DNA of 64,000 nt from Azospirillum ramasamyi (GTDB taxonomy: Bacteria; Pseudomonadota; Alphaproteobacteria; Azospirillales; Azospirillaceae), in the NCBI RefSeq assembly GCF_003233655.1, contig NZ_CP029829.1, positions 1,994,978-2,058,977 of the forward strand, given 5' to 3'. A program made the position numbers and the translations under genes. Within the stretch, counting starts at the first letter, position 1. Every line of letters starts with the position of its first letter. A model generated the notes under the pieces. It had not been told where the DNA came from and searched no databases. It was given only the letters and a program-made list of their open reading frames with translations. This document shows, piece after piece, positions 49,537-64,000 of this stretch.

Positions 49537-50187
49537 TCAGGCCTCCGCGTCGGGCTGGCGGTCGGGGGCGGCGGCGGCGAAGGCCGGCAGGGAGCGGCAG
49601 GCCTCGTCGATGCGCAGCAGCGTCGGATAGCCGTCCAGCGGACAGGCCAGCCGGCGGGCGTTCGCCATCTGCGGCACCAGCAGCACGTCGGCCAGCCCCG
49701 GCGCATCGCCGTGGCAGAAGCGACCGGTGCGCGGATCGCCGGCCAGCTGCGCCTCCAGCGCCGTCAGCCCGACGGCGATCCAGTGGCGATACCAGTCGTC
49801 GACCTCCTCCTGGCTGTGGCCCATCGCCTTCAGCCGGCCCAGCACCCGCAGGTTGTTCAACGGATGGATGTCGCAGGCCACCGCCAGCGCCAGCGCCCGC
49901 ACCCGCGCGCGGCCCAGCGGATCGGCCGGCAACAGCGGCGGAGCGGGATGGGTCTCGTCCAGATATTCGATGATGGCGAGCGACTGGGTCAGCACATGGT
50001 GCCCGTCCGGCCCGTCGACCTCCAGCGCCGGCACCAGATGCTCCGGGTTGAGGGCGGCGAAGGGCGGCCTGGCCTGCTCGCCCCGGCGCAGATGGACGAA
50101 GGCCTGGTCCGGCGCCAGCCCCTTCAGGTTCAGGGCGATGCGCACGCGGTAGGCGGCGGAGGAGCGGAAGTAGGTGTGGAGTTTCAC
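49537..50187 (-). CDS. maiA: Maleylacetoacetate isomerase (zeta-class GST)
   Basis: A 216-residue zeta glutathione transferase. The signature SSAAYRVRIALNLKG lies near residue 8 (the Ser of the active site), and then QSLAIIEYLDETHPAPPLLP and CDIHPLNNLRVL. It isomerises maleylacetoacetate to fumarylacetoacetate with glutathione in homogentisate breakdown. The GTG start at 50187 is the only one that gives a standard N-terminus. fahA and hmgA of the same pathway lie about 12 kb away at the end of the window, so the pathway genes are split here. Confidence 0.92.
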   Translation of the reverse strand: MKLHTYFRSSAAYRVRIALNLKGLAPDQAFVHLRRGEQARPPFAALNPEHLVPALEVDGPDGHHVLTQSLAIIEYLDETHPAPPLLPADPLGRARVRALALAVACDIHPLNNLRVLGRLKAMGHSQEEVDDWYRHWIAVGLTALEAQLAGDPRTGRFCHGDAPGLADVLLVPQMANARRLACPLDGYPTLLRIDEACRSLPAFAAAAPDRQPDAEA

Positions 50188-50294
50188 GGGCGTTGGTCCG
50201 CTAGGTTGATGCTGCGCTTTGCCCCCTCCCCATCCCGCCCTCAACCGTCGGCGGGAAAGGGGGGAAGTGTTGATTCGGGACAGCGACGACAGTC

Positions 50295-50377
50295 CCTCCC
50301 CCGCCCAGCTCTCGCACAAAGCTGCGCTTTGTGCTGACGCGACAGGCGGACCGTAGGTCCGCTGAGAGCGGGGGAGG
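50295..50377. repeat. 83-bp cloverleaf-like repeat (copy 1)
   Basis: Outer arms are CCTCCCCC and GGGGGAGG, then GCTCTC and GAGAGC. Inside are two perfect hairpins, GCACAAAGC-TGC-GCTTTGTGC and GCGGACC-GTA-GGTCCGC, separated by a short linker. An element of the same length and plan, inverted, is at 54004-54086. It lies between livF and maiA, on the 3' side of livF. Confidence 0.85.
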
Positions 50378-50405: not shown

Positions 50406-51110
50406 TCACAGCCCCAGGTAAGCCTGCCGCACCCGCTCGTTGCTCAGAAGCGCGGCGCCGCTGTCGCTCAGCACGATCTCGCCGGTCTCGATCACATAGC
50501 CGCGGTCGGCGATGGCGAGCGCGGCGTGGGCGTTCTGCTCCACCAGCAGGATGGTCGTGCCTTCCCGCTTCAGCCGCTGCACGGCGTCGAAGATCTCCGC
50601 CACCAGCAGCGGCGCCAGCCCCATGCTGGGCTCGTCGAGCAGGAGCAGGCGCGGCTTCGCCATCAGCGCGCGGGCCAGCGCCACGATCTGCTGCTGGCCG
50701 CCCGACAGGGTTCCGGCGGGCTGGTCGCGCTTGACCTTCAGCACCGGGAACATCTCGTACAGCCGCTCGATGTCGTCGTCGGGCTTGCCGCTGCCGCGGC
50801 GGAAGGCGCCGAGGCGCAGGTTGTCCTCGACCGTCTGCGGGCCGAACAGCTGCCGGCCCTCCGGCACCTGGACCACGCCTTCGGCGACGCGGCGCGACGC
50901 CTTCATCCGGGTGATGTCGCAACCGTCGAAGGTGATGCGCCCGCTGCTGGCGGGATGGACGCCGGACAGGGTGCGGAGCAGCGTCGTCTTGCCGGCGCCG
51001 TTGGCGCCGACCAGCGCCACCAGTTCGCCTTCCCGCACGGACAGGCTGGCCGATTTCAGCGCGTGGATGCGGCCGTAATGGCTGTTGAGGCCCTCGATCT
51101 CCAGAAGCAT
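50406..51110 (-). CDS. livF: Liv-type ABC transporter ATPase
   Basis: A 234-residue ATPase of the branched-chain amino acid/HAAT class. Walker A is GANGAGKTTLL near residue 36, the signature is LSGGQQQIVALARALM near 135, and Walker B is LLLLDEPSMGLAP near 155. An EQNAHAAL motif in the H-loop region is typical of LivF. It is the last gene of livKHMGF on the minus strand, 13 bp after livG. The unit's substrate may not be branched-chain amino acids; see the livK entry. Confidence 0.95.
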   Translation of the reverse strand: MLLEIEGLNSHYGRIHALKSASLSVREGELVALVGANGAGKTTLLRTLSGVHPASSGRITFDGCDITRMKASRRVAEGVVQVPEGRQLFGPQTVEDNLRLGAFRRGSGKPDDDIERLYEMFPVLKVKRDQPAGTLSGGQQQIVALARALMAKPRLLLLDEPSMGLAPLLVAEIFDAVQRLKREGTTILLVEQNAHAALAIADRGYVIETGEIVLSDSGAALLSNERVRQAYLGL

Positions 51111-51123
51111 GGCCGGACCTCCC

Positions 51124-51948
51124 TTACGGCGCCGCGCCGAGATAGGCGGCGATGACGTCGGGGTTGGCCGCCACCTCCTGCGGCGTGCCCTCGGCCAGCA
51201 TGCGGCCCTGGTTCAGCGCGGTGATCCGGTGCGAGATCCCCATCACCATCTTCATGTCGTGCTCCACCAGGACGATGGTGACGCCGCTTTTCGCCACGGT
51301 CTTGATCACCTCGTCGATCTCGCGGCTTTCGGTGGCGTTCAGGCCGGCGGCCGGTTCGTCCAGCAGAAGCAGCTTCGGTTCAGACGCCAGCGCGCGGGCG
51401 ATCTCCAGCCGTTTCAGCGCGCCGTAGGGCATGGAGGCCGCGTCGGCGTCGATGTACTTCTCCAGCCCGACCTCGGCCATCAGCTGGGCGGCCCGGTCGC
51501 GCGCCTCGCGGTCCCTGCGCACCAGCGAGGGGAAGCGGAACAGCGCCGGCAGCAGCCGGGTGTTCAGGTGCAGGTGCCGCCCCACCATGACGTTCTCCAG
51601 CGCCGTCATGTTGAAGAAGATCTGCAGGTTCTGGAAGGTGCGCGACATGCCGCGGGCGGCCAGCTTGTAGGGCGCCATGCCCGATACGTCGGCCCCGTCG
51701 AACAGCACCCGGCCGCCCGACGGCTTGTAGACGCCGGTCACCAGGTTGAACAGCGTGGTCTTGCCCGCCCCGTTCGGCCCGATGATCGAATGGATGTCGC
51801 CGGCCGCGATGGTGAAGCTGAGATCGCCGACGGCGAGCACGCCGCCGAACTCGCGGCTGAGATGCTCCACCTGCAGGATCGGCGGGCCGACGCGGCGCGC
51901 CTGCGCGCTGGTGTCGGGAGCGAGATCGGGAGTGGTCAGCATGTTCAT
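51124..51948 (-). CDS. livG: Liv-type ABC transporter ATPase
   Basis: A 274-residue ATPase. Walker A is GPNGAGKTTLFNL near residue 57, the LivG-specific ARGMSRTFQNLQIF follows near 97, then YGALKRLEIARALA and LLLLDEPAAGLN. The C-terminal VLVEHDMKMVMGISHRITALNQGRMLAEGTP, given here in parts, is typical of LivG. The first 20 residues are an extra N-terminal extension. The start overlaps the livM stop by 4 bp. Confidence 0.95.
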   Translation of the reverse strand: MNMLTTPDLAPDTSAQARRVGPPILQVEHLSREFGGVLAVGDLSFTIAAGDIHSIIGPNGAGKTTLFNLVTGVYKPSGGRVLFDGADVSGMAPYKLAARGMSRTFQNLQIFFNMTALENVMVGRHLHLNTRLLPALFRFPSLVRRDREARDRAAQLMAEVGLEKYIDADAASMPYGALKRLEIARALASEPKLLLLDEPAAGLNATESREIDEVIKTVAKSGVTIVLVEHDMKMVMGISHRITALNQGRMLAEGTPQEVAANPDVIAAYLGAAP

Positions 51949-52892
51949 GCCCGCCTCCGCGCCGGGACCAGCGCCGCCAGGGTGGGAAGAAGGCCCTTCG
52001 GCATGAAGACCATCGTCGCCATCAGGATGCCGCCCAGCACGATCTGCTGGTAATCCTGGAAGACGGTCAACGCCTGCGGCAGCAGGGTCAGCACCACGGC
52101 CCCGACGACGGCGCCGAAGGTGGACGCCATGCCGCCGAACACCACCATCGTCACCAGCTCGATCGACTTGAAGAAGTCGGCCTTGGCCGGGGTGATCAGG
52201 CCGGTGTAATGGGCGAACAGGCTGCCGGCGACGCTGGCGAACACCGCCGACAGCACGAAGACCAGCACCTTGAAGCGCGCGGTATCGACGCCGACCACCT
52301 CGGCCGCCACCTCCGAGCCGTGGACGGCGCGCAGCGCCCGGCCCATCGGGCTGTCTATCAGGTTCAGCGACAGCCAGACCACGCCCAGCAGGAACGCGCC
52401 GACCACCCAGTACCAGACCTTCTCGCCATACAGCTCGACGCCGAAGATTTTGAACGGCTCCACCATCATGCCGTCGGGACCGCCGGTCAGGCCGCTTTCG
52501 GTGCGCAGCACGATCGACACGATGATGCCGATGCCGAGGGTCGCCATGGCGAGGTAATGGCCCTTCAGCCGCAGGATCGGCTTGGCGACCAGGAAGGCCA
52601 GCAGCCCGACGAAGACGGCGCCGGCCAGCAGCGCCACCACCGGCGGCCAGCCGTAGCTGCCGACAAGCACGCCCGACGCATAGGCGCCGATGCCGAAGAA
52701 GCCGGCATGGCCGAGGCTGATCTGCCCGGCATAGCCGATCAGCAGGTTCAGCCCGACGCAGACCACGGCGTTGAAGCCGGCCAGGATGGCGATGTCGAGA
52801 TAGAAGTTGTTGGGCAGGAAGGCCGGCAGGACCGCGATCACCGCGCCCAGCGCCAAAAGCCCGGTCAGCCGCCCGTGAAGGAGTGCGTTCAT
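51945..52892 (-). CDS. livM: Liv-type ABC transporter permease
   Basis: A 315-residue permease with about ten membrane helices. The family stretch GLNLLIGYAGQISLGHAGFFGIGAYA is present (in parts), and the cytoplasmic loop has the EAA-like segment around RALRAVHGSEVAAEVVGVDTARFK. It forms the inner-membrane channel with LivH. It lies 14 bp after livH and overlaps livG by 4 bp, so the whole unit is tightly coupled. Confidence 0.94.
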   Translation of the reverse strand: MNALLHGRLTGLLALGAVIAVLPAFLPNNFYLDIAILAGFNAVVCVGLNLLIGYAGQISLGHAGFFGIGAYASGVLVGSYGWPPVVALLAGAVFVGLLAFLVAKPILRLKGHYLAMATLGIGIIVSIVLRTESGLTGGPDGMMVEPFKIFGVELYGEKVWYWVVGAFLLGVVWLSLNLIDSPMGRALRAVHGSEVAAEVVGVDTARFKVLVFVLSAVFASVAGSLFAHYTGLITPAKADFFKSIELVTMVVFGGMASTFGAVVGAVVLTLLPQALTVFQDYQQIVLGGILMATMVFMPKGLLPTLAALVPARRRA

Positions 52893-52906
52893 CGGTTATC
52901 CGGTCC

Positions 52907-53782
52907 TTACACCCGTTCGGTGCCGCGCTTGCCGAACAGTCCGTTCGGCATGAAGAGAAGGACGGCCAGGATGATGACGAAGGCCACCGCATCCTTGTAG
53001 GCCGAGGAGATGTAGCCGGCGCCCAGCGCCTCCGCGACGCCGACGATCAGCCCGCCGGCGACGGCGCCCGGCCCGTTGCCGAGACCGCCCAGCACCGCGG
53101 CGGTGAAGCCCTTCAGCCCCAGCATGATGCCCATCTCGGTGTAGGAGAAGGTGATGGGGGCGACCACCGCCCCGCCGATGGCGCCCAGCGCCGCCGACAG
53201 CGCGAAGGAGGCGAGCACCACCCGCTTCACGTCGATGCCCACCAGCTGCGCCGCCAGACGGTTGTGCGAGGTGGCGAGGATCGCCTTGCCGGTCAGCGTC
53301 TTGTTGAAGAAGAGGCCGATGGCGACGATCAGCACGCATGCGGTGCCCACCACCCACAGCGACTGCGGCTGCATCGAGGCGCCCAGGATCTGGATCGGCG
53401 TTTCGCCGGAAAAAGCCTCCAGCCGCTTGAAATCCTTGCCCCAGATCAGCTCGGCGATGCCGCGCAGGAAGATCGACGCGCCGATGGTGATGATGATGAG
53501 GGTGACGGTGGAGGCGTTGCGCGCCCGTTCCACCGCGAATTTCGCCACCAGCACGCCGACCAGCATGGCGCCGCCGCAGCCGATCATGATCGCCAGCGGC
53601 AGCGGCACCCCCGACGCGGTCAGCGTGGCCGACGCCATGCCGCCGACCATGATGAACTCGCCCTGGGCGAAGTTGATGACATGGCTGGCGTTGTAGATGA
53701 TCGAAAAGCCGAGCCCCGCCAGCGCATAGATCGCGCCGATGGTCAGCCCCGACAGCATGTATTGCAGCAGTTCCGCGAACAT
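52907..53782 (-). CDS. livH: Liv-type ABC transporter permease
   Basis: A 291-residue permease with about eight membrane helices. It starts LLQYMLSGLTIGAIYALAGLGFSIIYNASHVINFAQGEFIM, seen in separate parts, and has ILATSHNRLAAQLVGIDVKRV in the cytoplasmic loop. It pairs with LivM. A 330-bp gap with an 83-bp cloverleaf repeat separates it from livK upstream on the same strand, unlike the tight spacing within livHMGF. Confidence 0.94.
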   Translation of the reverse strand: MFAELLQYMLSGLTIGAIYALAGLGFSIIYNASHVINFAQGEFIMVGGMASATLTASGVPLPLAIMIGCGGAMLVGVLVAKFAVERARNASTVTLIIITIGASIFLRGIAELIWGKDFKRLEAFSGETPIQILGASMQPQSLWVVGTACVLIVAIGLFFNKTLTGKAILATSHNRLAAQLVGIDVKRVVLASFALSAALGAIGGAVVAPITFSYTEMGIMLGLKGFTAAVLGGLGNGPGAVAGGLIVGVAEALGAGYISSAYKDAVAFVIILAVLLFMPNGLFGKRGTERV

Positions 53783-54112
53783 CGTTGGGTTCCTGTGATC
53801 CTATCCCGATCCGGGAGAGGGCATGGAGCCGACGGCCGCAGGCCGGACGAGCGCCGACGGCGGTCGTAGGCGGAATGCGGCCGCGAGACTTGCGAGCGGC
53901 CTCGGGGCCCATGCGCAGCATGGGAAGGGTGAGGGTGCGGCAAGGATCCAGGCCTTCAATCCTTGGATTCCCCCTCACCCTCCCCGCCTGCGGCGGGTTC
54001 CCTCCCTCTCCCGGGGCTCTCAGCGGATCTTCGATCCGCCTGACGCCGTCAGCACAAACAGAGTTTGTGCGAGAGGCGGGAGAGGGTCGCTGCGCCCGTC
54101 AGAGAGCTGGGT
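53783..54112. other. Intergenic region between livK and livH
   Basis: This 330-bp gap carries the 83-bp cloverleaf repeat next to the livK stop, a second inverted repeat (AAGGATCCAGGCC region near 53942-53967) and no protein-like frame. The folded RNA could allow livK to be made in greater amount than the downstream transporter genes. Confidence 0.55.
54004..54086. repeat. 83-bp cloverleaf-like repeat (copy 2, inverted)
   Basis: Outer arms are CCCTCTCCC and GGGAGAGGG, then CTCTC and GAGAG. Inside are GCGGATC-TTC-GATCCGC and GCACAAAC-AGA-GTTTGTGC with a TGACGCCGTCA linker. The order of the two inner hairpins is reversed relative to the copy at 50295, so it is the same element in opposite orientation. 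It starts 26 bp after the livK stop on the minus strand. Confidence 0.85.
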
Positions 54113-55279
54113 TTACTTCACCAGCGACCAGTCGCCCTGCTTGACCTCCACCATGTGGAAGGCGTCCAGCGTCAGGCCCATGTGGTCCGTCGGGCTCATG
54201 GTCACGGTGCCGCCGGTGCCGACATAGCCCTTGGTCTGCTCGATGGCGTCGCGCAGCTTGGCCTTGTCGGTGCCGCCGGCGCGCTTCACCGCCTCCAGCG
54301 CGATCATCAGCCCGTCATAGGCATGGCCGGCGAAAGTCGACACCTCGGTGTTGAAGTTGTCCTCGTAGACCTTGGTGAACTCGGTCACGACCTTCTTCTG
54401 CGGATCGTTGTCGGGCAGCTGCGCGGCGACGACCAGACCGGCGGCCGGCAGGCGGACACCCTCGGCGGCACCGCCGGCCAGCCGGATGAACTCCTTCGAC
54501 GCGACGCCGTGCGACTGGTAGAGCGGCAGCGAGATGCCGAGCTGGCGGTAGTTCTTGGTCACCACCGCGGGGCCCTGGCCCAGGCCGAACACCAGCACCG
54601 CCTGCGCCGCGGCGTTGTTCTTGATCTTGGTCAGCTGGGCGGTGACGTCGGTGTCCTTGGCGCCATAGGTCTCGTCGGCGACCAGCTCGATCCCGCGTTC
54701 CTTGGCGACGGCGATGGTCTGGTCGCGGCCCGACTTGCCGAAGCCGGAATCCTCCGACAGCAGCGCCAGCTTGGTCAGCCCGCGCTTCTTCATGTCCTCC
54801 ATCACCTTTTCCGCGGCCATGCGGTCGGTATGGGGGGTCTTGAACACCCACTTCTTCACCGGCTCGACGATCACCACGGCGCCGGCCAGCGAGATGAAGG
54901 GCACGCCGGCGCGCTCCACCAGGGGCACCGCCGCCATGGTCGCCGCGGTCGTGGTGCCGCCGACGATGAAGTCGACGCCGTCGCTCTCGATCAGGCGCTT
55001 GGTGAAGGAGGCCGCCTTGTCGGCCGCGCCGCCGTCGTCATAGACGGTCAGCTTCACCGGACGGCCGTCGACGCCGCCGGCCTTGTTGATGCGGTCGGCA
55101 TACAGCTCCAGCACCTTCTTCTCCGGATCGCCGAGGAAGGAGGCCGGGCCGGTGGCCGAGACGATGGCGCCGACCTTGATCGGGTCCGCGGCCTGCGCCG
55201 CCCCGGACAGCAGCCCGGACACCGCCGTCATGGCGGTCATGGCGGTGAAGGCGATGGTGGCAAGCAGGCGTTTGCGCAT
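54113..55279 (-). CDS. livK: Liv-type periplasmic substrate-binding protein
   Basis: A 388-residue exported binding protein of the Leu/Ile/Val-binding family. A signal peptide (residues 1-30, ending AAQA) is followed by DPIKVGAIVSATGPASFLGDPEKK, VDFIVGGTTTAATMAAVPLVERAGVPFISLAGA (in two blocks) and KDTDVTAQLTKIK. A GGGAGGA ribosome site lies before the ATG at 55279. The family also includes receptors for aromatic acids and amides, so the ligand is not fixed by family. Its promoter region carries the same operator-like element as the diiron oxygenase gene, suggesting the cargo is that enzyme's substrate or a relative. Confidence 0.92.
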   Translation of the reverse strand: MRKRLLATIAFTAMTAMTAVSGLLSGAAQAADPIKVGAIVSATGPASFLGDPEKKVLELYADRINKAGGVDGRPVKLTVYDDGGAADKAASFTKRLIESDGVDFIVGGTTTAATMAAVPLVERAGVPFISLAGAVVIVEPVKKWVFKTPHTDRMAAEKVMEDMKKRGLTKLALLSEDSGFGKSGRDQTIAVAKERGIELVADETYGAKDTDVTAQLTKIKNNAAAQAVLVFGLGQGPAVVTKNYRQLGISLPLYQSHGVASKEFIRLAGGAAEGVRLPAAGLVVAAQLPDNDPQKKVVTEFTKVYEDNFNTEVSTFAGHAYDGLMIALEAVKRAGGTDKAKLRDAIEQTKGYVGTGGTVTMSPTDHMGLTLDAFHMVEVKQGDWSLVK

Positions 55280-55496
55280 GATGTCCTCCCTTTGGCTGCC
55301 CGCCTTGACACCGGACCGGACGAGGGCCCGATCCCGGAGCGGCGGGACGATTTGCATCACATAATGTTTCAAACGAAACGATTTCGGAAGAGGATTTTTG
55401 GCCTCCGTGACCACAATCGAAGTGCGGATGTTTCCGCCCGCCCCCGTTTCCCAATGCGATCCCTGCATCTTCGGCCCAGGGGATCGCCGTTTCGTT

Positions 55497-55542
55497 TTAT
55501 GACACAATTTTGCTTTGATGATCCAACGTAGTGTATCACATT
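55497..55542 (-). promoter_or_regulatory. Operator-like spaced element upstream of livK
   Basis: Read toward livK it is GTGATACAC, 25 bases, GTGTCATAAAA. The same element with the same 25-base spacing stands at 57485-57529 ahead of the diiron oxygenase. A TTGGAT lies in the spacer and CATAAA in the right arm, which could be -35 and -10 with a 19-base gap. A third, single site GCATCACATAATG is at 55354-55366. Confidence 0.6.
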
Positions 55543-55725
55543 AATGATTGTCAAACGGAAAGTCCGGATTGCCTCCTATCGGCCGCCGGCCGGTATCCGC
55601 TCCGGTCTCCCGCGCTGTCGTGGCGCTGGCCGAACCGGGTCCGGGTTGCGTATACAACTCCATCGTACCGCCTCGCCCGGCTCCTCCCGCATCACCAGCC
55701 GTATCGATAAGGACGCCCCCACCGC

Positions 55726-56670
55726 ATGGCCCGCCCGCGCCGCACCGAAGACCTTGCCGCCCAGTTGACCGAGACGATCGCGCCGCGGGCGAAGTCGCTG
55801 ATCATCACCGTCTATGGCGACGCCGTGCTGCCGCATGGCGGATCGCTGTGGCTGGGCAGCCTGATCGACCTGATGGGGCTGTTCGGGATGAGCGAGCGGA
55901 TCATCCGCACCTCCGTCTTCCGGCTGTGCAAGGACGACTGGCTGACCAACACCCAGATCGGCCGGCGCAGCTTCTACCGCGTCACCGACAGCGGCAAGGA
56001 ACGCTTCGCCGCGGCGGAGCGGCGGATCTACGCGCCGCTGGCCCGCGAATGGGATCGCGGATGGGATCTGCTGATGGTACCGCCAAACGCGCTGGACGCG
56101 GAGACGCGCGACGCCCTGCGGCGGGAACTGACCTGGCAGGGGTTCGGCGCCGCCTCGGCCACCGTCTACGCCCATCCCAACTGCGACGAGGCGGCGATGC
56201 ACCGCTCGCTGGCGGAACTGGGGGTTGCCGACAAGATCGTCCACATGAAGGCCAGCCTGGACCGGGCGGAGGGCTTCGGGGCGTTGCGCGATCTGGTGCG
56301 CGGCTGCTGGGACATCGATCAGCTCGAACACGACTATGCGGCGTTTCTGGATCATTTCCGTCCGGTCTGGGCGGCGGTCGATGCCGCCGACACCCCGGAC
56401 CCGGCATCCTGCTTCGTCCTGCGCACGCTGATGATCCACGACTTCCGCCGCATCCTGCTGCGCGACCCGATGCTGCCGCCCGACCTGCTGCCGGCTGATT
56501 GGCCGGGCCAGGAATCGCGGATGCTCACCCGCAACCTCTATCGCCGGCTGGCCGGTCCGTCCGAAGCCTTCCTGATGCAGGCGGCGACCACGGCCAACGG
56601 TCCGCTGCCCGATGCGCAGCCGGCCTTCCAGGGGCGGTTCGGCGGGCTGGAGAGCATCCCGGCCGGTTGA
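55726..56670 (+). CDS. PaaX-family transcriptional regulator
   Basis: A 314-residue regulator of the PaaX family. The N-terminal winged helix (residues about 15-90) shows SLIITVYGDAVLPHGGSLWLGSLIDLM and ERIIRTSVFRLCKDDWL. The PaaX middle and C-terminal domains follow (WDRGWDLLMVPPNALDAETRDALRREL; HDFRRILLRDPMLPPDLLPADWPG), shown in parts. PaaX represses phenylacetate genes until phenylacetyl-CoA binds it. Here no paaABCDE or CoA ligase is nearby, so the effector may be another aryl-CoA. It diverges from livK across 446 bp that contain a spaced operator-like element. Confidence 0.92.
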   Translation: MARPRRTEDLAAQLTETIAPRAKSLIITVYGDAVLPHGGSLWLGSLIDLMGLFGMSERIIRTSVFRLCKDDWLTNTQIGRRSFYRVTDSGKERFAAAERRIYAPLAREWDRGWDLLMVPPNALDAETRDALRRELTWQGFGAASATVYAHPNCDEAAMHRSLAELGVADKIVHMKASLDRAEGFGALRDLVRGCWDIDQLEHDYAAFLDHFRPVWAAVDAADTPDPASCFVLRTLMIHDFRRILLRDPMLPPDLLPADWPGQESRMLTRNLYRRLAGPSEAFLMQAATTANGPLPDAQPAFQGRFGGLESIPAG

Positions 56671-56830
56671 CCCGCACCCCAGCGACGGTACCCCAGCGGC
56701 TGTAGCGGCCCGGCGGCAATGGGCGCCCGTCCCGCCGGCCGCCTCGGCTAAAGGCCTATACATCGAATGCAAGGAATCATCGTAGGCTTGGGACTGTCGC
56801 CGTTCGATCCGACCGTTTCCGGGATGCCGT

Positions 56831-57316
56831 ATGCTGACCATCATCTACCGCAGCGAGGCTATTGACCGGCTGCCCTACAGCGCCCTCGCCGACATCTGTC
56901 TGTTCAGCGCCCGCAAGAACCGCGAGTTGGGAGTGACCGGCTTTCTGGTGGAGTTCGAGGGCATCTTCCTGCAGGTCCTGGAAGGCGAAGCCGAGGTGGT
57001 CGAGCCGCTATACACCCGCATCGCCGCCGACCCGCGCCACCGCAACGTCCAACTGCTCCTGCGCGAGCATTCGGCCGGCCAACCAAATTTCGGCTTTTGG
57101 GCGATGAATTTCGGACCGCTCGACACCCCGACCTTCTGGCAGGCGGTGTTCGGTTCCCCGGTCCGGGTCGAGGAGTTCCGCCGCCGGTCGCACGATGCCG
57201 GCTTCGCACTCGACGTGCTGGCCCGCGCCTACATGCATGCCTGCATCCTGGCCGACATCGATCCCGCCACCCGCGACCTGGTGCGCGGCACCATCCCCAG
57301 TTTCCCGGTCGGCTGA
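56831..57316 (+). CDS. BLUF-domain blue-light sensor
   Basis: A 161-residue protein with an N-terminal BLUF domain (residues 1-95) that binds FAD. The functional residues are in place: Tyr6 (IIYRS), Asn30 (RKNREL) and Gln48 (FLQVLEG). GVTGFLV and RIAADPRHRNVQLL also match. A helical C-terminal part (about 105-161) has no known output domain, so it likely acts by protein contact, like short BLUF proteins. It lies between the PaaX-like regulator and the diiron oxygenase on the same strand, but gaps of 160 and 274 bp leave cotranscription open. Confidence 0.92.
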   Translation: MLTIIYRSEAIDRLPYSALADICLFSARKNRELGVTGFLVEFEGIFLQVLEGEAEVVEPLYTRIAADPRHRNVQLLLREHSAGQPNFGFWAMNFGPLDTPTFWQAVFGSPVRVEEFRRRSHDAGFALDVLARAYMHACILADIDPATRDLVRGTIPSFPVG

Positions 57317-57484
57317 CCTAGCGGCCGACGCGGGTCCGACGCCGCTCCGGCGGCGTCCTCAATTCCGATACCAATTACCCGAATATCGAGCACATCCCGT
57401 ACGAATTGATCTGGATCAATTCGGCACCTCCACATGCCTTTCTTTTCAAATCAATGCATTATGACGTCCGGCCCGCCCCTCAAC

Positions 57485-57529
57485 GTGATACACAATTTGT
57501 TGAACGATCTGATTTTTCGTGTCATATAA
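57485..57529 (+). promoter_or_regulatory. Operator-like spaced element and promoter of the diiron oxygenase
   Basis: It reads GTGATACAC, 25 bases, GTGTCATATAA, 62 bp before the oxygenase ATG. A sigma-70-like promoter fits inside it: TTGAAC at 57500-57505, 17 bases, CATATA at 57523-57528. The -10 overlaps the right arm, as expected for a repressor site. The same element is upstream of livK. Confidence 0.65.
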
Positions 57530-57590
57530 AGACCACAGGGCGCCGATGGAAAAGTGAGCGCCCGCCGAAATTCCCGGAGGAAACGCCCCC

Positions 57591-58619
57591 ATGTCCAAGG
57601 ACTACGCCCCCATCGCCAACACGATGGAGCTCCCCCCCGCCACGCCCCAGCCGAATGTCTACCCGCTGTCCTGGGTGTCGCAGACCAAGAAGCTGGAAGA
57701 GGTCTACGCCGCCGCCCAGCGCGAGAACTGGGATCCGGCCAAGCTGCCCTGGGACAGCTTCGACGTGTCGCGCTACAGCTGGGAGGAGCGGGAGGCCATC
57801 GCCTATTGGTGGACCATCCTGTCGGTGTTCGACGCTTCCGCCCCGCCGGTCTTCGCCCATGCGCTGATCAAGACCTACGAGGTGCATGAGGAGGATCCCG
57901 TCCGCCGCTGCTTCTTCTCCGTCACCCGCGACGAGCAGAACCACGAGCAGATGTGCGGGCTGGCCATCACCAAGCTGCTGGAGGCCGACAGCCCGCTGAC
58001 CTACGAGCCGAAGACCGATCTCGGCCGCCGGCTGCAGAAGAACGCCCACTGGCTGTACTACAATGGCGGACGCTATTGGGACGGCTACAAGAAGGCGGTT
58101 CCGAAATACTCGCTGGCGGTGCTGTTCAGCTCCTTCCTGATGGGCGAGATCGCGGCGGCGACCATCTTCCACCAGATGGCGGCGGGCTGCACCGAGCCGG
58201 TGTTCAAGGAGGCCTTCCGCAACATCGGCCGCGACGAGGGCCGCCACATGGCGATCTGCATGTCGGTGATGGAGCGCGACTATCCCCATCTGGCGGTGGA
58301 GGACAAATCCGTCATCACCAAGCAGATCCGCGCCGGCTACCTGTTCCTGTCCGCCGTCCTGTTCGAACCGCCGCCCCAGTTCTGGGACCTGCCGGACGAC
58401 TTCATCGCCACCCAGCGCGAGGCCGAGGCCATCGCCCGCAACGCCGGCTTCCACATCCCGGATTACGAGGCGAAGAAGGAGAACTGGCGCAACGCCATGC
58501 TGAACCTCAAGGGCGTGCTGGACCGCTACGGCATCCCGTTCCCGGCGATCCCCGAAGTCGGCATCACCGGCGAGGAAGTGCGGGACGTCGACATGGACGA
58601 GATCATTCCGGTGTTCTGA
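57591..58619 (+). CDS. Ferritin-like diiron oxygenase, substrate unknown
   Basis: A 342-residue all-helical protein with the carboxylate-bridged diiron pattern. A helix with Glu residues (EEREAIAYWW near residue 65) is followed by ExxH in DEQNHEQMC (near 115), a lone Glu in LMGEIAAATIFH (near 185), and a second ExxH in GRDEGRHMAIC (near 215). This is the ligand order of R2-like oxygenases. A 2Fe-2S/FAD reductase gene follows at 58807 and is the natural electron donor. An AGGA ribosome site precedes the ATG. It is not BoxB-like in length (about 470) and lacks multicomponent partner subunits. The PaaX-family regulator nearby suggests an aromatic or aryl-CoA substrate; a p-aminobenzoate N-oxygenase-like activity is an alternative. 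Confidence 0.8.
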   Translation: MSKDYAPIANTMELPPATPQPNVYPLSWVSQTKKLEEVYAAAQRENWDPAKLPWDSFDVSRYSWEEREAIAYWWTILSVFDASAPPVFAHALIKTYEVHEEDPVRRCFFSVTRDEQNHEQMCGLAITKLLEADSPLTYEPKTDLGRRLQKNAHWLYYNGGRYWDGYKKAVPKYSLAVLFSSFLMGEIAAATIFHQMAAGCTEPVFKEAFRNIGRDEGRHMAICMSVMERDYPHLAVEDKSVITKQIRAGYLFLSAVLFEPPPQFWDLPDDFIATQREAEAIARNAGFHIPDYEAKKENWRNAMLNLKGVLDRYGIPFPAIPEVGITGEEVRDVDMDEIIPVF

Positions 58620-58647
58620 GGCGCCCGCAAGATTTGCTCCCACCCTA

Positions 58648-58760
58648 CCCCTCCCCCGCTGGGCGGGGGAGGGAGCTCCGCCGATCTCCCGCGAAGCTCC
58701 TGTCCCCCTCCCCTGCATCGGACCGGCCTCCGGTCGGCCGAGAGCGGGAGAGGGTCGGGG
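58648..58760. repeat. Related GC-rich intergenic hairpins
   Basis: CTCCCCCGC-TGG-GCGGGGGAG near 58651-58671 and GACCGG-CCT-CCGGTC at 58721-58735 lie between the oxygenase and its reductase. The flanking CCTCCCC and GAGAGCGGGAGAGGG resemble the outer arms of the 83-bp cloverleaf elements, but the GCACAAA hairpin is missing, so this may be a degenerate relative. Confidence 0.5.
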
Positions 58761-58806
58761 TGGGGCACGTGTTTTCCCGACCGATCAAATCCCAAGGATC
58801 CCCCCG

Positions 58807-59859
58807 GTGAGCCGAATCCGCCTCCACCCCTCCGGCCGCACGGTCGAGTGCCGTGACGGCGAGACCGTCCTGTCGGCGCTGGAACAGGCCGGCTACGCCC
58901 TGCCCAACAACTGCCGCGCCGGCGCCTGCGGCGAATGCAAGGTCAAGGTGCTCAGCGGCCAGTTCGACCAGGGCATGGTTCTGGACATGGCGCTGTCCCA
59001 GGGCGAGCGGAAGGACGGCTACGGCCTGATGTGCATGGCCAAGCCGATCTCCGACGAGCTGGTGATCGAATACGGCACCGCCGACGCCCAGCCCAAGCTG
59101 TTCCCGCCGCGCGAGAACGTGCTGTTCATCGTCACCGACCGCATCCCGCGCACGCCGCGCATCGTGGAGCTGCGCCTGCGCCCGCTCGGCCAGCCGCTGC
59201 GCTACTGGCCGGGCCAGTATGTGATGCTGGGCGACGACTCCGCCGGAGCGCCGCCGCGCTGCTATTCCATCGCCAACGCCCCCCGCCCCGACGGCGAGAT
59301 CGTGCTGCAGGTGACGCGCGTGGACGGCGGGCCGACCAGCGGCTGGATCCACGACACGCTGACCGTCGGCAGCATGGTCAAGCTGTCCGGCCCCTACGGC
59401 ACCTTCATCGGCGACCCGTCGGTGGACAGCCCGGTGCTGTGCATGGCCGCCGGCTCCGGCCTCGCGCCGATCCTGGCGCTGACCGACGCGGCGCTGCGCC
59501 GCGGCTACCGTCCGCCGGTGACGCTGCTGTTCTCCGCCTGCACGCAGGCCGACGTGTATGAACTCGGTCTGCTCAGCTACTGGCAGGCCAAGTACCGCAA
59601 CTTCAAGGTCAAGGTGACGCTGACGCGGGAGGAAGCCGCCGGCCATCTCAAGGGCCGCATCCCCGCCATCCTGCCCGGCCTGTTCCCCGACCTGTCCGGC
59701 CACGCCATCTTCACCGCCGGCAGCCCCGCCTTCGTCGAGTCCTGCGTCGCCGCCGCCCGTTCGCTGGGCGCCAGGGACGACCAGATCCACAGCGAAGGCT
59801 ATGTCTCGCAGCACATCCCGGAGACGCTGCCGGCCGACCGGCTGATGGCGGTGGGGTGA
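58807..59859 (+). CDS. 2Fe-2S/FAD/NAD(P)H oxidoreductase, likely donor to the diiron oxygenase
   Basis: A 350-residue modular reductase. A plant-type 2Fe-2S domain (residues 1-92) holds the cluster cysteines in CRAGACGEC (C-x4-C-x2-C) and LMCMA. An FAD-binding domain (about 100-205) has the RCYSIAN motif, and the NAD(P)H domain (about 215-340) has AAGSGLAPILAL. It is the class that feeds electrons from NAD(P)H to diiron or Rieske oxygenases. The start is GTG at 58807 with AAGGA before it. A 187-bp repeat-bearing gap separates it from the oxygenase gene. Confidence 0.9.
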   Translation: MSRIRLHPSGRTVECRDGETVLSALEQAGYALPNNCRAGACGECKVKVLSGQFDQGMVLDMALSQGERKDGYGLMCMAKPISDELVIEYGTADAQPKLFPPRENVLFIVTDRIPRTPRIVELRLRPLGQPLRYWPGQYVMLGDDSAGAPPRCYSIANAPRPDGEIVLQVTRVDGGPTSGWIHDTLTVGSMVKLSGPYGTFIGDPSVDSPVLCMAAGSGLAPILALTDAALRRGYRPPVTLLFSACTQADVYELGLLSYWQAKYRNFKVKVTLTREEAAGHLKGRIPAILPGLFPDLSGHAIFTAGSPAFVESCVAAARSLGARDDQIHSEGYVSQHIPETLPADRLMAVG

Positions 59860-62304: not shown

Positions 62305-63321
62305 TTACGGCCCCTCGTACCGCACCACCTGCTGGTCGATGGCGCCGAACACGCTGGCGCCGGACTCGTCGAACAGCTCGATCCGCACGCGGTCGCCGAA
62401 GCGCATGAAGGGGGTCTTCGGCGCACCATGCTCGATGGTTTCGATCATCCGCAGCTCCGCAAGGCAGGAATAGCCGACGCCGCCGGCGCTGACCGGCTTG
62501 CCGGGTCCGCCGTCCAGCTTGTTCGACACCGTGCCCGACCCGACGATGCTGCCGGCCGCCAGATGGCGGGTCTTGGCGGCATGGGCGATCAGCGTCGGGA
62601 AATCGAAGGTCATATCGACCCCGGCATTCGGGCAGCCGAAGGGCTCGCCGTTCAGCGTCGTCACCAGCGGACGGTGCAGCTTGCCGCCGTCCCAGGCGTC
62701 GCCCAGCTCGTCCGGCGTCACCGCGACGGGGGAGAAACTGGAGGCCGGCTTGGACTGGAAGAAGCCGAAGCCCTTGCCCAGCTCCGCCGGGATCAGGTTG
62801 CGCAAGGATACGTCGTTGACCAGCATCAGCAGCCGGATCTGTCCGCGCGCCGCCTCGGCCGAGACGCCCATCGGCACGTCGCCGGTGATGGCGGCGATCT
62901 CCGCCTCGAAATCGATGCCCCAGGCCTCGGTCGCCGCCGGGATCGGGTCGGTCGGCGCCAGGAAGCTGTCGGAACAGCCCTGATACATCAGCGGGTCGGT
63001 CCAGAAGCTGGGCGGCATCTCCGCCCCGCGAGCCTTGCGCACCAGCTCAACATGGTTGACGTAGGCCGAGCCGTCCGCCCATTGATAGGCGCGCGGCAGC
63101 GGCGAGGCCGCCTCGGCCGGGTCGAAGGGCCGGCCCGATGCCGGATCGGCGTTCAGCGCGCGATAGGCCTCCTCCAGCTTGGGCGCCAGCGCCGACCAGT
63201 CGTCCAGCGCCGCCTGCAAGGTCTTCGCGATTTCCGGCACCGGCGTCGCGCGGGTCAGGTCGCGCGACACCACGACCAGGGTGCCGTCGCGCCCGCCCGC
63301 CTTCAAACTTGCCAGCTTCAT
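62305..63321 (-). CDS. fahA: Fumarylacetoacetate hydrolase family protein
   Basis: A 338-residue protein of the FAH family. The N-terminus is MKLASLKAGGRDGTLVVVSRD. The catalytic core has EAWGIDFEAEIAAITGDVPMG, LMLVNDVSLRNLIPAELGKGFGFFQSKPASSFSPVAVTP in parts, and GSGTVSNKL with the metal-binding acidic residues. It hydrolyses fumarylacetoacetate to fumarate and acetoacetate. The next gene upstream on the same strand, hmgA, 49 bp away, supports the homogentisate route. The 297 bp between it and the chemoreceptor holds nothing recognisable. Confidence 0.92.
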   Translation of the reverse strand: MKLASLKAGGRDGTLVVVSRDLTRATPVPEIAKTLQAALDDWSALAPKLEEAYRALNADPASGRPFDPAEAASPLPRAYQWADGSAYVNHVELVRKARGAEMPPSFWTDPLMYQGCSDSFLAPTDPIPAATEAWGIDFEAEIAAITGDVPMGVSAEAARGQIRLLMLVNDVSLRNLIPAELGKGFGFFQSKPASSFSPVAVTPDELGDAWDGGKLHRPLVTTLNGEPFGCPNAGVDMTFDFPTLIAHAAKTRHLAAGSIVGSGTVSNKLDGGPGKPVSAGGVGYSCLAELRMIETIEHGAPKTPFMRFGDRVRIELFDESGASVFGAIDQQVVRYEGP

Positions 63322-63370
63322 TCGTCTCTTCCCTTCCTGAAATATCAGCCTGCGGCGGCCTTATGGCCGC

Positions 63371-64000
63371 TCATTTCGCTTTCCAGCTGTCGGCGTAGCC
63401 GCCCCATTCGACGCCCTCCATCGCCGGGTAGACGTCCAGCGGGTCGCGGGTGTCGATCATCACCGCCACCTCGTCGGTCTCCTTGCGCTCGAATTTCTGC
63501 GCCACCTCGTAGGCCTTCGGATGCGGCCCGTGCGGGAAGCCCGAGGGGTGATAAGTCACCATGCCGGGGTGGATGTTGTCGCGCGAGAAGAACTGGCCGC
63601 GGTGATAGAACAGCACCTCGTCGTAATCCTCGTTGGAGTGGTAATAGGGCAGCTTCAGCGCCTCCGGATCCGACTCGATGGGCCGCGGCACGAAGGTGCA
63701 GACGACGAAGCCGTTGGCGATCCAGGTGCTGTGCGCCGAGGGCGGCAGGTGGTAGCGGTGGCTCATCAGCGGCCGGATATCGCGCCAGTTCAGCCGCACC
63801 GGCGCCAGATCGCCGTGCCAGCCCACCGCGTCCAGCGGGTTGAACGGATAGGTCATGGCGCAGATCCGATTGCGCTTCTTCACCCGGACCAGCGTTTCGC
63901 GCTCGTGCTTCTGCGCCTGGAAGGCATCGTCCAGGGCCGGGACGTCCAGCACCGCCGGGTCGAAGATGGCGTGGGTGCCGACCAGCCCCTTGTGCGGCAG
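63371..64000 (-). CDS. hmgA: Homogentisate 1,2-dioxygenase, C-terminal part
   Basis: The frame is open to the window edge, so the start is missing and only the last 210 residues are seen (beginning LPHKGLVGTHAIFDPA). Family stretches include NPLDAVGWHGDLAPVRLNWRDI, YYHSNEDYDEVLFYHRGQF and MVTYHPSGFPHGPHP. These hold the iron-binding Glu and His residues of the dioxygenase. It opens the homogentisate ring to maleylacetoacetate. It is the likely promoter-proximal partner of fahA; maiA is located separately at 49.5 kb. Confidence 0.93.
   Translation of the reverse strand: MPHKGLVGTHAIFDPAVLDVPALDDAFQAQKHERETLVRVKKRNRICAMTYPFNPLDAVGWHGDLAPVRLNWRDIRPLMSHRYHLPPSAHSTWIANGFVVCTFVPRPIESDPEALKLPYYHSNEDYDEVLFYHRGQFFSRDNIHPGMVTYHPSGFPHGPHPKAYEVAQKFERKETDEVAVMIDTRDPLDVYPAMEGVEWGGYADSWKAK

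Follow-up and report, generated by a model that had tools for sequence, protein, structure and literature searches.

We examined a 64,000-nucleotide stretch of the Azospirillum ramasamyi genome (contig NZ_CP029829.1, positions 1,994,978 to 2,058,977; hereafter the window), in which a ferritin-like oxygenase, OXY, is followed by a 2Fe-2S/FAD/NAD reductase, RED. The locus reads as a minus-strand importer of the Liv type, spanning about 50406-55279, and then, divergently on the plus strand, a PaaX-type regulator, a BLUF protein, OXY and RED (Table 1). Family scans and open reading frames (ORFs) gave the same genes in the same order as the original prediction, which had been made from the sequence alone. 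That prediction took the genes for a locus of aromatic oxidation, in which an importer and a PaaX regulator accompany an oxygenase and its matching reductase, and this view was borne out. It also held the pathway to be self-contained and unassignable, and paaABCDE and a coenzyme A (CoA) ligase to be absent. Neither claim survived, because in relatives OXY-RED lies within or close to clusters of phenylacetate (paa) genes and because PaaA/PaaC, PaaD, PaaE and PaaK are encoded on contig 5 of the same genome.

Table 1. Features of the OXY-RED locus (positions within the window; bits are profile scores).
Feature	Position	Strand	Basis
LivF ATPase	50406-51110	-	named by position, without family scan
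LivG ATPase	51124-51948	-	start inferred from relatives; named without family scan
LivM permease	51945-52892	-	ORF and conserved cluster in relatives; named by position, without family scan
LivH permease	52907-53782	-	PF02653
LivK-type periplasmic binding protein	54113-55279	-	PF13458, 216.5 bits
PaaX, phenylacetate-pathway repressor	55726-56670	+	TIGR02277, 305.3 bits (over cut-off, 264.55)
BLUF blue-light sensor protein	56831-57316	+	PF04940, 79.8 bits (over cut-off, 25)
FNR/Anr/FixK-type box TTGATCTGGATCAA, between BLUF and OXY	57406-57419	+	match to the FNR/Anr/FixK consensus
OXY, ferritin-like diiron oxygenase, 342 aa; proposed catalytic subunit of a non-PaaABCE phenylacetyl-CoA epoxidase	57591-58619	+	predicted
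RED, 2Fe-2S/FAD/NAD reductase, proposed electron donor of OXY	58807-59859	+	

In line with the prediction, OXY could be assigned to no known family. It scored over no family cut-off, matched 0 NCBIfam families at E<=0.001 and, at the same limit, matched neither PF05138 (PaaA_PaaC) nor TIGR02156. A search of solved structures by sequence returned no real relative. A sub-threshold match to AurF (PF11583; 20.8 vs 29.6 bits) spans the ligand region, and two proteins of the more distant type II described below scored 26.2 and 25.1 bits, also under 29.6. Six residues, D81, E115, H118, E186, E216 and H219, recur without exception in 47 closely related and 8 more distantly related proteins, and their spacing would fit a diiron site. 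The ligand order had been given as Glu, ExxH, Glu, ExxH; the other residues are indeed invariant, and the spacing favours Asp81 over Glu as the first metal ligand. An AlphaFold2 model built on a 47-row alignment (pLDDT 86.3, pTM 0.85) was placed by Foldseek and VIA-align with R2lox, ribonucleotide reductase (RNR) R2, deformylating oxidase and VlmB at Z 18-19, helical bundles giving common arrangements under Z about 13. R2lox aligned at Z 19.5 (root-mean-square deviation 3.4, 265 aligned residues, 11% identity, Foldseek TM about 0.5) and VlmB at Z 18.1, so that the predicted fold of OXY may be called R2lox-like. The sub-threshold AurF matches and the fold matches would suit an AurF-kind N-oxygenase or an oxidase of the R2/R2lox type, with no relation to phenylacetate. 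However, no match exceeded a cut-off, and the dedicated 2Fe-2S/FAD reductase and the linkage to paa genes speak against such an enzyme, to which we give the least credit of all the explanations considered. OXY differs from R2lox, RNR R2 and VlmB, its best fold matches, by an identity of 8-14%, a first ligand that is probably Asp, its reductase and its catabolic context; from AurF p-aminobenzoate N-oxygenase, which it resembles weakly in profile, it differs by a score under the Pfam cut-off and, again, by context. An RNR or housekeeping role was ruled out by the catabolic linkage.

RED is composed of Fer2 (5-80), FAD_binding_6 (113-200) and NAD_binding_1 (214-313) domains. This order, with the 2Fe-2S part first, differs from that of PaaE, in which the FAD/NAD part comes first and the 2Fe-2S part last (PMC9493321, available in part). 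The best NCBIfam model for RED, BenC (NF040810), matched over profile positions 13-330 of 333 with 139.5 bits, well under the cut-off of 430, and with TIGR02160 RED scored 124.3 bits and the window genome's own PaaE 468. Scanning a single genome per species yielded 214 stretches with relatives, of which we kept the best 80 (77-99% identical to OXY; 18 loci from Azospirillum and 62 from elsewhere), flank counts being limited by some short contigs. Conserved linkage with the reductase, on which the original prediction had staked itself, was complete: all 78 loci having at least 1500 bp of downstream sequence have RED no more than 700 bp after OXY. Moreover, OXY and RED distances correlate (Mantel r 0.73 for 79 loci; r 0.60 for the 61 loci outside Azospirillum; 0 of 999 permutations in both cases), a correlation of which shared species history could give part. 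Conservation is much higher in OXY than in its partner, the mean identity among those 61 loci being about 80% for OXY and about 65% for the reductase.

Linkage with the regulator had likewise been expected. It held throughout Azospirillum, where PaaX and a LivK relative are each present in 18 of 18 loci, and in part beyond the genus: the 62 other loci include 18 with PaaX, 8 with a LivK relative, 24 with at least one core paa gene and 32 with either PaaX or a core gene. A Vitreoscilla plasmid carries paaABCDE, pcaF and paaZ with OXY-RED downstream of them. The Sedimenticola locus (L074) has PaaK, PcaF/PaaJ, PaaH, PaaG and PaaF on one strand, then PaaZ, OXY and RED, then PaaX; all six paa enzymes there (PaaK, PcaF/PaaJ, PaaH, PaaG, PaaF, PaaZ) exceeded their cut-offs, and PaaX was named by similarity only, with no NCBIfam match at E<=1e-90. 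Genes over cut-off near OXY-RED were also PaaN, PaaG, PaaK and PaaX in Telmatospirillum (L021; PaaH under), PaaN, PaaG and PaaK in Accumulibacter (L053), PaaN and PaaG in Rhodospirillum (L080), and PaaG, PaaI and PcaF in Arcobacter (L073), where PaaK, PaaX, PaaH and PaaF stayed under theirs. These neighbourhoods suggest, with good confidence, that OXY-RED belongs to phenylacetate catabolism.

PaaG acts on the epoxide made by PaaABCE (PMC9493321, in the part available), and a PaaG pathway without PaaABCE therefore needs another epoxidase. We searched PF05138 (PaaA/PaaC) in 50 of the 66 locus genomes, picked beforehand mostly for longer contigs; one of the 16 left out (L005) is present, by its coordinates, in the genus search described below. 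A match at E<=1e-40 was taken as strong; of the subunits PaaA to PaaD, the search in these genomes covered PaaA and PaaC. Strong PaaA/PaaC matches were present in 29 of these OXY genomes (E<=1e-89) and lacking in 21, 14 of which had no PF05138 match at E<=0.001. The rest of the pathway could nevertheless be recognised in most of the 21: PaaK (TIGR02155) was found at E<=1e-100 in 19, in 16 of them over the cut-off, and PaaG (TIGR02280) exceeded its cut-off in 19, compared with 62 of the 385 genomes of the class sample described below.

The same pattern emerged within the genus. Among 45 Azospirillum genomes (PaaA/PaaC at E<=1e-30, PaaG over cut-off), PaaA/PaaC occurred in 26, type I OXY in 28, type II only in 1 and PaaG in 31. 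PaaG was present exactly where PaaA/PaaC or OXY was present: 23 genomes had PaaG, PaaA/PaaC and type I OXY, 5 had PaaG and OXY, 3 had PaaG and PaaA/PaaC, and 14 had none. For OXY among the 19 genomes without PaaA/PaaC, Fisher's test gave 8.6e-5 with relatedness ignored. All five genomes that combine PaaG and OXY in the absence of PaaA/PaaC have a paaN-G-H-I-J-K block on the contig of OXY, with PaaG 2-20 kb from it. In one of them (L119) this block follows OXY-RED and the FAH, HGO-like and PaaY-like genes and precedes a flavin monooxygenase; in the window's genome (L097) the PaaY-like gene directly adjoins the flavin monooxygenase just past the window end, as if this were the L119 arrangement minus its paa block. 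The window's genome instead has a canonical paa cluster on contig 5, with its only two PF05138 matches at E<=0.001, the whole-genome search finding none within the window. PaaA, PaaD, PaaE, PaaN, PaaG, PaaH, PaaI and PcaF exceed their cut-offs on that contig, as does PaaK (713.9 vs 646.3). No PaaZ over cut-off was found in this genome, and PaaN is therefore the likely ring-opening partner.

We then considered the regulation of OXY. The perfect TTGAT-N4-ATCAA upstream of the gene, which we take to be the FNR/Anr/FixK consensus, is the sole match with 0-1 mismatches in the window. As 0.27 such matches are expected by chance and 27 of 100 shuffles contained at least one, the window box alone proves little. 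Its weight lies in its recurrence upstream of OXY elsewhere: the box, with 0-1 mismatches, precedes OXY in 32 of 78 loci, and in 17 of 60 outside Azospirillum, where spacers differ, against a background of 1.2% in block shuffles and 1.5% in random windows. Within the genus, a perfect box was found in 22 of the 23 genomes having both enzymes and in 0 of the 5 having OXY alone (counts assembled by hand, genomes being matched to loci via coordinates). Among the 50 genomes, a box with 0-1 mismatches occurred in 14 of 29 with PaaA/PaaC and in 3 of 21 without (p=0.016). In the accessible part of a study of Bradyrhizobium under microoxia, phenylacetyl-CoA epoxidase subunit A appears in a table of protein versus gene expression with a value of 4.6 (PMC6515984). 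Oxygen control of the phenylacetate pathway is plausible, whichever its direction for OXY, and OXY-RED could plausibly be a low-oxygen isozyme beside PaaABCDE in the window's genome.

The OXY-RED pairing, the paa linkage, the box and the lack of strong PaaA/PaaC beside an otherwise present pathway were computed directly, and we go beyond them in proposing a reaction, a substrate, a set of ligands and an oxygen control with its direction. We consider it probable that OXY and RED constitute a second, non-orthologous phenylacetyl-CoA epoxidase made of one diiron protein and its reductase. According to this scheme, PaaK would form phenylacetyl-CoA, and RED would take electrons from NAD(P)H and hand them on, by way of FAD and the 2Fe-2S cluster, to the diiron site of OXY, bound by carboxylates and histidines. 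There O2 would be activated and one oxygen placed on the ring as a 1,2-epoxide, after which the normal oxepin pathway would proceed through PaaG, PaaZ or PaaN, PaaF, PaaH and PaaJ. In some lineages PaaABCDE would have been replaced by OXY-RED; in others, including the window's genome, OXY-RED would be a second enzyme beside PaaABCDE, with PaaX adjacent and an FNR-type box before OXY, and would there most simply be an isozyme for low oxygen. We propose more tentatively that this is a widespread, unannotated second class of epoxidase, which replaces PaaABCDE in several lineages and serves as an FNR-controlled low-oxygen isozyme where both are kept; as a whole, this proposal seems to us slightly likelier to need amendment than to stand.

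The distribution of the enzyme was followed further in 385 genomes of the window's class (PaaA/PaaC at E<=1e-30, PaaG over cut-off), which contained 13 OXY matches, 11 of them at E<=1e-100, with PaaG in 62 genomes and PaaA/PaaC in 49. The 11 strong OXY genomes tracked PaaG (7 of 62 vs 4 of 323, p=4e-4). In six of them the best full match was type II, with identities to OXY of about 50-52% across the five that were aligned; one of the six genomes (G117) also has type I-like pieces on other contigs. Type II adjoins PaaK and PaaI in two loci (L112, L114) and lies near PaaG and PaaK in another (L110). In Variovorax (L083, L084), type II is accompanied by its own diverged reductase and by genes for an AMP-binding CoA ligase, a MaoC-type protein, an enoyl-CoA hydratase, a thiolase, Liv components and an indolepyruvate ferredoxin oxidoreductase, and perhaps acts on another arylacetyl-CoA. 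An actinobacterial homologue from Nonomuraea (L085:7959-8981) is 49% identical to OXY; no paa gene or reductase was recognised in its 8 kb flanks by ORF similarity to the other loci, and it is possibly a third type.

Several findings weigh against the assignment of OXY-RED as a phenylacetyl-CoA epoxidase. First, PaaG occurs without PaaA/PaaC in 33 class-sample genomes, only 5 of which have OXY, and OXY thus accounts for a minority of them. The remaining 28 of the 385 have PaaG over cut-off and neither enzyme, and so there must be further enzymes as yet unknown, or look-alikes of PaaG. These 28, among which other epoxidases may exist, together with the divergent importer adjoining OXY-RED in Azospirillum, would suit an upstream role, in which OXY-RED converts an amine, styrene or a similar compound to phenylacetate or phenylacetaldehyde and the ring epoxidase is a further unknown enzyme. 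However, in several genomes lacking PaaA/PaaC the oxygenase that accompanies the paaK-to-paaZ or paaN-to-paaK blocks is OXY-RED, and its exact tracking of PaaG across the genus would be odd for an upstream step, which we regard as very improbable. Second, the 29 of 50 OXY genomes that also carry PaaA/PaaC could use OXY for another aryl-CoA. OXY-RED would then epoxidise or hydroxylate a related compound, such as hydroxy- or indole-acetyl-CoA, and borrow the downstream paa enzymes, in line with the gene company of type II in Variovorax (AMP-binding ligase, MaoC-type, enoyl-CoA hydratase, thiolase and Liv genes) and with the homogentisate-type genes flanking the Azospirillum locus. We hold this to be unlikely: PaaK and PaaG are over or near their cut-offs, and often linked, in the genomes without PaaA/PaaC, and the average identity of about 80% among type I OXY proteins from 61 non-Azospirillum loci argues for one substrate.

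Other points also count against a phenylacetyl-CoA epoxidase role of OXY-RED. Neither PaaX nor a core paa gene was found in the available flanks of 30 of the 62 non-Azospirillum loci, and three of the six type II loci (L111, L113, L115) have no paa gene nearby. Of the 21 genomes without strong PaaA/PaaC, two (G008, G047) show neither PaaG nor PaaK within the limits applied, and seven have weaker PF05138 matches (E 6.5e-37 to 1.5e-4), four of which pass Pfam's low cut-off (G002, G008, G041, G044). Five of the seven (G033, G036, G041, G044, G047) match at 1e-6 to 1e-4, and four of these five matches, in reading frames of about 506 residues, are perhaps BoxB. In the genus, three of the five genomes without PaaA/PaaC encode a diverged relative of PaaA together with a small partner gene, in divergent orientation to PaaX and beside OXY (L013:7606-8424, L015:7600-8418, L119:2665-3462); that of L013 scores 84.7 bits with PF05138 and 69 with TIGR02156, whose cut-off is 280. 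In 17 of 26 genomes of the genus, canonical paaA is itself preceded by a one-mismatch box, TTGATCTGTATCAT (L096:8873, L134-L151), and the two enzymes therefore cannot be told apart by the box alone. A rule by which the box would occur only when PaaABCE coexists fits the genus and, weakly, the 50 genomes; it was abandoned in view of this near-box. Finally, shared ancestry inflates all counts.

How does OXY-RED compare with known systems? BoxAB, the benzoyl-CoA epoxidase, also consists of a diiron oxygenase subunit and a reductase acting on an aryl-CoA ring; OXY differs in matching no NCBIfam model and in its PaaK/PaaG context, BoxB itself not having been compared directly. With PaaABC(D)E the system shares the proposed reaction, the pathway neighbours, PaaX and the combination of a diiron oxygenase with a 2Fe-2S/FAD reductase. 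It differs in that OXY has no PF05138 match and is a single oxygenase protein, with no PaaB, PaaC or PaaD adjoining it. We found no account of a non-PaaABCE phenylacetyl-CoA epoxidase in the literature, partial sources included, most subscription papers being outside coverage. Indole-3-acetate catabolism, our first guess, was dropped after a literature search gave nothing and the paa contexts overtook it. A 2026 survey, available in part, supports PaaA and PaaC as pathway markers, having found both in each of the 825 genomes that carry its final set of ligases, but its final filter kept only ligases co-localising with PaaABCDE (PMC13186573). The survey also notes configurations without the epoxidase, for which the parts at hand propose no replacement, and describes PaaR or PaaX as undetectable in Azospirillum paa contexts, which fits PaaX being placed at the OXY locus instead. 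Further sources, also available in part, served as background only (PMC2653477, PMC9765128, PMC9416434).

Phenylacetate is a central hub of aromatic breakdown, and its ring-attacking step has so far been tied to the PaaABCE complex. If OXY-RED is a second epoxidase, PaaA and PaaC would not be universal markers of the pathway, and genome-based pathway calls would change. A two-protein epoxidase would also be an easier enzyme for mechanistic studies and biocatalysis, and would illustrate directly how one diiron enzyme can displace another.

Two further features of the window concern its local setting. Homogentisate-type genes flank the locus (49537-50319 and 62305-64000 in the window, and L097:1-3907), with MaiA over cut-off, an FAH family member and an HGO-like gene, and so do a PaaY-like gene, whose relative in L009 scored 296.5 against a cut-off of 319.6, and the flavin monooxygenase. 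In the available part of one paper 2-hydroxyphenylacetate is named as a shunt product (PMC3916325), and the flanking genes could salvage it through homogentisate. As for BLUF, strong matches (73-90% identity) lie directly 5' of OXY in 9 of the 80 loci, all from Azospirillum, and weak ones (36-39%) near OXY in two further loci (L047 and L081); the sensor is a local addition to the OXY locus, its strong relatives at this place being limited to part of Azospirillum.

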